Source of the DNA: an uncultured Clostridia bacterium
GTDB taxonomy: Bacteria; Bacillota; Clostridia; Christensenellales; Borkfalkiaceae
Direction of reading: 5' to 3'
Assembly: GCA_947624005.1 (NCBI GenBank)
Contig: CANQHV010000001.1
Location: forward strand, 124,001 to 188,000
DNA: 64,000 nucleotides
Made by a program: the position numbers and the translations under genes. Positions 45,229 through 47,257 of the stretch are shown piece after piece. The notes beneath the pieces are model-generated. The model searched no databases and was not told the origin of the DNA. It saw nothing but the letters and a program-made list of their open reading frames with translations. How positions within the stretch are numbered: the first letter of the stretch is position 1; the number at the start of each line of letters is the position of its first letter.

Positions 45229-45250
45229 AGGGTAGCCGACAAGCTACCCT
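45229..45250. terminator. Intrinsic terminator between XRE gene and glyS
   Basis: agggtagc-cgacaa-gctaccct flanked by A/T tracts on both sides. Confidence 0.7.
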
Positions 45251-45306: not shown

Positions 45307-45513
45307 TTATTTGAAATTCCGCGAAAATAATTCGTCGATACTGACTTCGTAGAAGTCCGCTATCGCCGCAAGCGTTTCATAGTCGGGGCGCGCCTTGTCG
45401 GTTTCGTACCTTGTATAGTTTACTCTGCTGATTTTAAGCAGTTCCGCAAGTTTTTCTTGCGTAAGCCCCTCGTTCTTACGCAATTCTTTTAATTTTCTGC
45501 CAATCTGTATCAT
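45307..45513 (-). CDS. XRE-family HTH transcriptional regulator (68 aa)
   Basis: IGRKLKELRKNEGLTQEKLAELLKISRVNYTRYETDKARPDYETLAAIADFYEVSIDELF. Confidence 0.93.
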   Translation of the reverse strand: MIQIGRKLKELRKNEGLTQEKLAELLKISRVNYTRYETDKARPDYETLAAIADFYEVSIDELFSRNFK

Positions 45514-45540: not shown

Positions 45541-45569
45541 TTGACATTGTACATATTTTGTACTATAAT
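45541..45569 (+). promoter_or_regulatory. Consensus sigma-A promoter for InlB-repeat lipoprotein gene
   Basis: TTGACA-17-TATAAT with GTACA-tattt-TGTAC dyad in the spacer. Confidence 0.8.
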
Positions 45570-45604
45570 GTTTTAAAATGTACGAATAATGTACATTTTA
45601 AAAC
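45570..45604. repeat. Perfect inverted repeat / candidate operator
   Basis: GTTTTAAAATGTAC-GAATAAT-GTACATTTTAAAAC, 14-bp arms. Confidence 0.85.
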
Positions 45605-45616
45605 AAAAACGGAGTT

Positions 45617-47257
45617 GTGGAAAAAGTGAAAAGGCGGTACAAATTTTTAATAGTTATTTTAAGTTGTATATTGGCTATGTCAATTGCGCTGTTTTCGGGT
45701 TGTGGAATGTTCAGCAGTTGCTGTGCCAGACACTATTATGTTACATATTCAGATAAAGACATTGTACATTCTGGAATAGATGTCAAAAAAGGCGATAAAA
45801 TTTTTGTTAACAATAATCATATACCGTATAAAGATGGCTACATTTTTTTGGGTTGGTTTGACAAAGAAGAGGGTGGCGAAATGTATATTGACGCACAAGG
45901 TCAAGGCTTAAAAGGCATAAAAAAGGATTTAACACTTTATCAGCAGTACAAAGCAATTGATATTACGGTAAAACTCAAATATCCCGAAGAATATACCGGT
46001 GCCAAAACCGAAACGTTGGTGTTAAAATACGACGATAAAATCGACGGCTTGCCGCTTGATTTAACTTTGGCAAATTGTGATTTTGACGGGTGGTATACTC
46101 AAAACGCGGGGCACGGCAAAAAAATCGCAAATGCGTCCGGTATGCTTGCGGGAGTTTCAGCTATAAACTACAATGAGTACAATATTTGCGAAGACGAGCT
46201 GACGCTTTACGCGAATTTTACTCCGAAAAAATATATTGTAACTTTAAAATTCGGCGACGAACATTTGGACGAGGAGGTGCGCGTTGAATACGGTACACCG
46301 GTAGCGGGGATAAATTATAAAACGCGTAATGCTGACGGCTTTGCGGTCAACGGTTGGTCAAAGTCAAAAGGCGGCGAAAACTTTTCGGGAAAAATAACGG
46401 GAAATACGGTTTTATATGCTTCCGGCAAATGGTCGCCGATTATAACTTTCGACAATAACGGCGGAAGCGGTGCATATTCAATTGTTGCCGATGAAAACGA
46501 AGATATAACATTGCCAATACCCGAAAAGATAACGGGAGAATTTAATGGTTGGAATGACGATAAGGGCAATGTAGCCGAATTTGACAAAATGCCCTCGGAA
46601 AGCGTTAAACTGACTGCAAGTTGGACGCCCAAAATCGTATTAGACGAAAATGGCGGTGAAAAAGTGAACGATATTAAGGCAAAAGCCGGAGCCTCTGTAA
46701 GTTTACCGTATATAACAAAGAATGGCTATATTTTCGGCGGCTGGTTCGACGAGGACGGCAAAAAATATGAAACTAAAACTATGCCAAATGAAGGAGCGTT
46801 ACTTAAAGCCGGCTGGTATAAGGCTAAACAAATGACTATGACCTGGAAAGATGCATATGCCGACTGTGAGACAACATACAGAGGTCACGAATCTTCAATT
46901 TACGAAGAAACTAATTTGGAGGGAATATATTACTTGATATTAGATATTTCTTTCGAGTGTGATCACTATTCAAGTAAAAATTCAATAATTGGTTTTGACG
47001 GTTATAACAGTTTGTATTTCTGCATATATTCAGCTGCGACTACAGATTCAAATTTCGCCTTATGCGACCAAGATTATTTTCCCCATCAAAAAGTATCAAG
47101 TTACAGAAAATATAACGTCAAAAAAACTATCAAAGTAACAGATGGTTTATTTTATATGTCTTTTACGGCGAGTACAAGATATAGCGGTGTTTCAATACGC
47201 AATATTTCAGCGAATGTTACTTACCCGCTTATAAAGAGTTTGTATTTGGATTTTTAA
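45617..47257 (+). CDS. InlB B-repeat (Listeria-Bacteroides repeat) lipoprotein; start may be GTG 45626
   Basis: Lipobox LFSGCG, repeated GYIFLGWFDKEEGGE / CDFDGWYTQN / GYIFGGWFDEDGKKYE units. Confidence 0.85.
   Translation: MEKVKRRYKFLIVILSCILAMSIALFSGCGMFSSCCARHYYVTYSDKDIVHSGIDVKKGDKIFVNNNHIPYKDGYIFLGWFDKEEGGEMYIDAQGQGLKGIKKDLTLYQQYKAIDITVKLKYPEEYTGAKTETLVLKYDDKIDGLPLDLTLANCDFDGWYTQNAGHGKKIANASGMLAGVSAINYNEYNICEDELTLYANFTPKKYIVTLKFGDEHLDEEVRVEYGTPVAGINYKTRNADGFAVNGWSKSKGGENFSGKITGNTVLYASGKWSPIITFDNNGGSGAYSIVADENEDITLPIPEKITGEFNGWNDDKGNVAEFDKMPSESVKLTASWTPKIVLDENGGEKVNDIKAKAGASVSLPYITKNGYIFGGWFDEDGKKYETKTMPNEGALLKAGWYKAKQMTMTWKDAYADCETTYRGHESSIYEETNLEGIYYLILDISFECDHYSSKNSIIGFDGYNSLYFCIYSAATTDSNFALCDQDYFPHQKVSSYRKYNVKKTIKVTDGLFYMSFTASTRYSGVSIRNISANVTYPLIKSLYLDF

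Follow-up and report, generated by a model that had tools for sequence, protein, structure and literature searches.

Two GTAC dyads at fixed spacing as the predicted operator of a lone Cro/CI-type repressor in uncultured Clostridia

In the stretch of Clostridia DNA analysed here (64,000 nucleotides, hereafter the window), a perfect palindrome lies between two divergent genes, one encoding a 68-residue XRE protein on the minus strand and the other a lipoprotein on the plus strand. Is this palindrome part of a regulatory switch and, if so, which protein reads it and which genes does it control? We consider it highly probable that the region serves as both operator and promoter in a cassette with a one-component repressor, in which XRE dimers at two GTAC dyads would shut off the divergent gene and autoregulate.

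Architecture of the divergent promoter and its operator

A sigma-70-type promoter directed towards the lipoprotein gene comprises a -35 element TTGACA (45541-45546, plus strand), a 17-bp spacer and a -10 element TATAAT (45564-45569, plus strand). All 12 letters match the consensus, in agreement with an earlier, sequence-only reading of this DNA. The putative start site falls in AAAA (45575-45578, plus strand), 6-9 nt past TATAAT. Four TGTAC half-sites begin at 45548, 45559, 45579 and 45590, exactly as first reported, and the operator consists of two 17-bp dyads, TGTACATATTTTGTACT and TGTACGAATAATGTACA, whose centres (45556 and 45587) are 31 bp apart. The xre-proximal dyad (45548-45564) fills the -35/-10 spacer, where it had already been recognised, and the xre-distal dyad (45579-45595) sits just 3' of the predicted start site; both are conserved in relatives.

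The distal dyad is embedded in an extended perfect palindrome (45569-45605) with arms of 15 nt, not 14 as originally counted, at 45569-45583 and 45591-45605, and 7 nt between them. The extended arms, TTTTAAAA, are not conserved. In a comparison of 35 operator copies (see below) the outer arms are particular to this species, with lengths of 15 nt here and 5-11 nt in others (one copy carries a mismatch), and the conserved core is TGTACA-N5-TGTACA. The unit shared by the two dyads and conserved is [A/T]GTAC-N7-GTACA. Counted in the window alone, such dyads are only mildly unusual (two matches at up to one mismatch vs 0.53 expected).

The XRE protein and the distribution of its operator

The xre gene (45307-45513, minus strand) encodes a lone HTH_3 domain of the Cro/CI type (Pfam HTH_3, 4e-17); its score of 62.4 bits, against a gathering cut-off of 23, places it within the family. 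The AlphaFold2 model (pLDDT 92.7) contains five helices, with the recognition helix RVNYTRYE at residues 30-37, and R30, N32, Y33, R35, Y36 and E37 are invariant in 34 aligned sequences. The predicted fold, that of a simple Cro/CI domain, is nearest in the PDB to the DNA-binding domain of the ICEBs1 repressor ImmR (40% identity, TM 0.83), and at 68 residues the protein is too short to include a sensor domain. CylR2 of Enterococcus faecalis, a lone Cro-like protein of 66 residues that controls one cytolysin operon, shares this fold (TM 0.76-0.78). The neighbourhood is made up of the housekeeping genes glyS, fhs and glnS. Assignment as a type II antitoxin was rejected: xre stands alone, with no toxin in the operon, and is followed by a terminator-like hairpin (45229-45250, minus strand) and then glyS.

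Scanning 84,980 species for an exact 21-base pattern returned 32 stretches, all from MAGs with Clostridia or Clostridiales and, in one case, Christensenella in their titles; the relatives compared below are likewise MAGs. Together with other searches this gave 35 distinct operator copies, every one lying immediately upstream of an orthologous XRE. The xre start codon mostly lies 7-60 nt from the operator; a distance of 0 nt, assigned automatically in eight copies, reflects an upstream in-frame ATG. Within the genus, 10 of 93 genomes carry the bipartite pattern, with no matches for the reversed control, and in a sample of the order it occurs in 10 of 396 genomes, spread over six genera. The pairing of operator and orthologous XRE extends across seven or more families within the order. 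Because the site is conserved to this degree in the genus and always stands beside the same XRE, it exceeds chance, and by these comparisons the two-part switch is almost certainly real. The GTAC and TAGTAC letters were built into the search pattern, so their constancy proves nothing. Outside the pattern, TTGACA is identical in 34 of 35 copies, columns 18-21 of the 35-copy profile, where transcription is expected to begin, are almost always AAAA, and T12/A6 of the distal dyad are strongly preferred. The -10 reads TATAAT in 24 copies and carries one change in the remaining 11.

The same association was obtained from the protein side. With the window XRE as sole query, three genomes of the genus were found to hold orthologues (65-70% identity), all three with TGTAC-N7-GTACA within 100 bp of xre, the dyad lying about 60 bp upstream. 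An ungapped alignment of the four operators retains both dyads and their spacing. Among more distant XREs, with identities no higher than 52%, none of the 26 loci examined had the dyad. A profile made from 34 operator-linked XREs, a test that is partly circular where the single-sequence query is not, separated 11 XREs in the genus (123-133 bits, the next at 78) and 12 in the order sample (112-128 bits, the next at 82); the sets overlap by two genomes, giving 21 orthologues. The operator is present at the same spacing in 18, altered in two and lost in one. A conserved operator between the genes, as in an autoregulated divergent repressor cassette, is found in 35/35 copies and 20/21 orthologues. 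The sequence-only reading had made its case depend on the palindrome recurring upstream of orthologues, and the operator indeed tracks the orthologous XRE. As for dyads elsewhere, which the same reading had raised, bipartite sites adjoin an orthologous XRE in each of the 35 copies, and the window's own genome (77% complete) holds no second one. Single dyads at one mismatch in that genome lie mostly within long open frames and none is bipartite, on which grounds a genome-wide regulon was rejected. On this evidence the operator is that of the XRE.

The exceptions are of several kinds. In G324 two extra bases lie inside the distal dyad, and in G243 there is one mismatch together with one extra base between the dyads. 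G074 is the orthologue lacking the operator; its XRE comes after another XRE of a different kind, and the palindrome in the promoter of that second gene is unrelated, an arrangement suggestive of displacement of one repressor by the other. At this glyS-fhs locus (L131:1495-2000), AGACTTGACAAGTCT-type palindromes occupy the promoter instead of GTAC dyads. Separately, the xre-operator segment between glyS and fhs is inverted in G017 (L057) relative to the window genome (43777-49218).

A lower-scoring XRE, in G238, is accompanied by TAGC dyads, likewise spaced by 31 bp. A search with this frame matched 11 of 396 genomes and its reversed control matched four different ones; taken by itself, this pattern is accordingly less specific. 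At all 11 loci (L170-L180, for instance L177:168-1460), TAGC-N5-GCTA dyads lie 31 bp apart in the same promoter frame, accompanied by TTGTCAA, which contains the complement of the divergent -35, and by near-consensus -10 letters. The XRE is directly downstream in each, with the helix QPSYIRYE in place of RVNYTRYE. Four of the 11 divergent genes encode EcoRI-type adenine methylases (PF13651); others encode lipoproteins and membrane proteins. The joint change of helix and dyad letters within an unchanged frame speaks strongly for recognition of these dyads by the XRE.

Predicted mechanism and competing explanations

The sequences themselves show which parts are present, how they are arranged, that they are linked to the XRE and that helix and operator change in step; from these we infer binding, repression, cooperativity and autoregulation. 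In the mechanism that we favour, dimers of the 68-residue XRE would bind the two GTAC dyads, with centres three helical turns apart, the proximal within the -35/-10 spacer and the distal over the transcription start of the strong divergent promoter. Bound XRE would turn the divergent gene off, here the lipoprotein and elsewhere often a membrane protein or lipoprotein. The fixed spacing suggests that the two dimers bind cooperatively and, by analogy with C.Csp231I (see below), they may contact each other. The XRE would also limit its own synthesis: its start codon lies near the operator, and xre transcription would thus originate within these sites or pass through them. In some relatives the start codon is 7-8 nt from the operator, and there the xre promoter must overlap the operator or lie beyond it. 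No conserved promoter of xre itself was identified in the 35-copy operator profile, and the minus-strand TAAAAT formerly suggested for this role is not conserved.

Two genomes bear on the function of the dyads for xre. G243 has no divergent gene; an upstream DegV-like gene (labelled from sequence, not by a family search) reads towards xre and ends in a terminator-like hairpin. There the divergent -35 and -10 have both degenerated, but the two dyads persist. The closest divergent gene in G017 is glyS, whose start codon is 166 nt distant; in this genome, too, the -35 has decayed and both dyads are kept. As the dyads outlast the divergent promoter in both cases, the operator would also serve xre. 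Judged from these two loci, the two functions are separable: the dyads work for xre itself, and the promoter persists only at loci with a divergent gene that depends on it. Autoregulation combined with divergent repression, as the sequence-only reading had it, is the best reading of a site that accompanies its XRE across families.

Lone Cro/CI-type repressors with a divergent operator are a kind already known. In the open-licence literature we found nothing direct on an XRE with a TGTAC operator or on such a cassette, and no earlier description of the cassette family. The class of C.Csp231I and C.EcoO109I likewise combines a small XRE dimer with two short dyads of 5-bp half-sites, about three turns apart, beside its own gene (PMC4321490). 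In C.Csp231I, two CTAAG-N5-CTTAG sites are separated by an 18-bp gap, the length of which, not the sequence, is needed for two-dimer binding (PMC4321490). Unlike C.Csp231I, which is part of a restriction-modification system, the 68-residue XRE stands alone and, within the GTAC class, its divergent target is unrelated to restriction-modification. Rco of plasmid pLS20 resembles the present case in having overlapping divergent promoters under one regulator at operator sites (PMC4207663), but is tetrameric, with a distant second operator, a DNA loop and conjugation genes.

A C-protein-like switch is possible, if doubtful. The distal dyad would recruit polymerase to xre at low dose, the proximal dyad would repress at high dose and the divergent gene would be repressed throughout, an arrangement that would refine the autoregulated repressor rather than oppose it. 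The geometry resembles that of C.Csp231I, whose sites are about 33 bp apart centre to centre (PMC4321490), and the 35-copy profile contains no conserved -35 for xre. The EcoRI-type methylases (4/11) of the sister class point the same way, as does the example of Rco, which activates as well as represses its own promoter (PMC4207663). However, while two dyads do stand beside the regulator's own gene, as for a restriction-modification controller protein, no restriction-modification genes were recognised by eye among the ORFs at 40-52 kb, and no methylase is among the GTAC-class targets scanned. Furthermore, relative to a putative xre start of the TATAGT type the distal dyad would be centred at about -31, closer in than the -42 at which classical activators sit.

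It is quite improbable that the locus is what remains of the immunity region of a phage or integrative element, comprising a repressor and an early promoter. ImmR of ICEBs1 is closest to the XRE among solved structures in both fold and sequence, ImmR and phage CI/C2-type repressors also have a divergent operator, and phages carry XREs less than 60% identical. Here, however, the flanks are housekeeping genes, no mobile element is present, the divergent gene is not recognisable as a phage gene and the 68 residues lack a C-terminal regulatory domain. The operator matched no viral contig (0), and both a phage origin and a role as phage or ICE immunity repressor were rejected.

There is a very slight chance that the palindrome acts as RNA, as a 5'-leader hairpin of the lipoprotein mRNA affecting stability or translation. 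The full palindrome folds well (-15.7 kcal/mol, z -7.3), but a transcript from 45576 is structurally ordinary (z -0.5), the second dyad sits in the untranscribed spacer and there is no Rfam match. Rejection of the hairpin followed from a predicted start inside the left arm and from outer arms that are not conserved. Finally, binding by the XRE is itself a deduction, yet that another, global regulator binds the dyads beside an incidental XRE is scarcely credible given the 35/35 linkage, the single bipartite site in the genome and the joint change of helix and operator in the sister class.

Targets of the divergent promoter

For the autoregulated repressor, the predicted target in the window is a lipoprotein with List_Bact/InlB-type repeats (45617-47257, plus strand; Pfam Flg_new, 1e-26), starting at GTG 45617 or GTG 45626, the second better spaced from GGAG. 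Its C-terminal 145 residues had no match in other genomes of its genus. Where divergent genes could be read (n = 31), 26 begin no more than 40 nt from the operator. Few targets resemble one another: they belong to many unrelated families, including repeat lipoproteins, zinc-ribbon/DUF4190 and B-box-like proteins, a trypsin-like protease, DUF1653, DUF6809 and others without a family, and at the syntenic nth-tuf site four species carry four unrelated targets. The earlier proposal of lipoprotein repression thus stands as repression of the divergent gene, still the best reading, but the lipoprotein is the target in this species only and unrelated genes take its place elsewhere. Hydrophobic segments occur in 19 of 26 targets vs 34.5% of background ORFs (Fisher p = 1.6e-4), a difference that is indicative only, the species being related and the background crudely called. 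The divergent -35 is kept in 34/35 copies although the target differs between species, even at one syntenic locus.

These observations raise a prospect that we regard as plausible, if somewhat short of probable: a "socket" cassette family in which a strong divergent promoter is held under a lone small XRE and the 31-bp frame of the two dyads does not vary. The family would include at least the GTAC and TAGC specificity classes. Varied genes, mostly for membrane proteins and lipoproteins, would have been repeatedly exchanged while repressor, promoter and genomic position stayed. If true, such exchange would make visible the capture of genes by a regulated promoter already in place. The two natural classes, with the same frame and different helices and half-sites, offer a compact test set for DNA reading by Cro/CI-type proteins, and the GTAC and TAGC pairs are candidate orthogonal repressor/operator parts for gut Clostridia.

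In this genome, the prediction is of a tightly controlled lipoprotein. Inside its gene, GACATTGTACAT at 45758-45769 is a 12-nt exact repeat of 45543-45554, a lone half-site that is possibly an auxiliary site or a chance occurrence.
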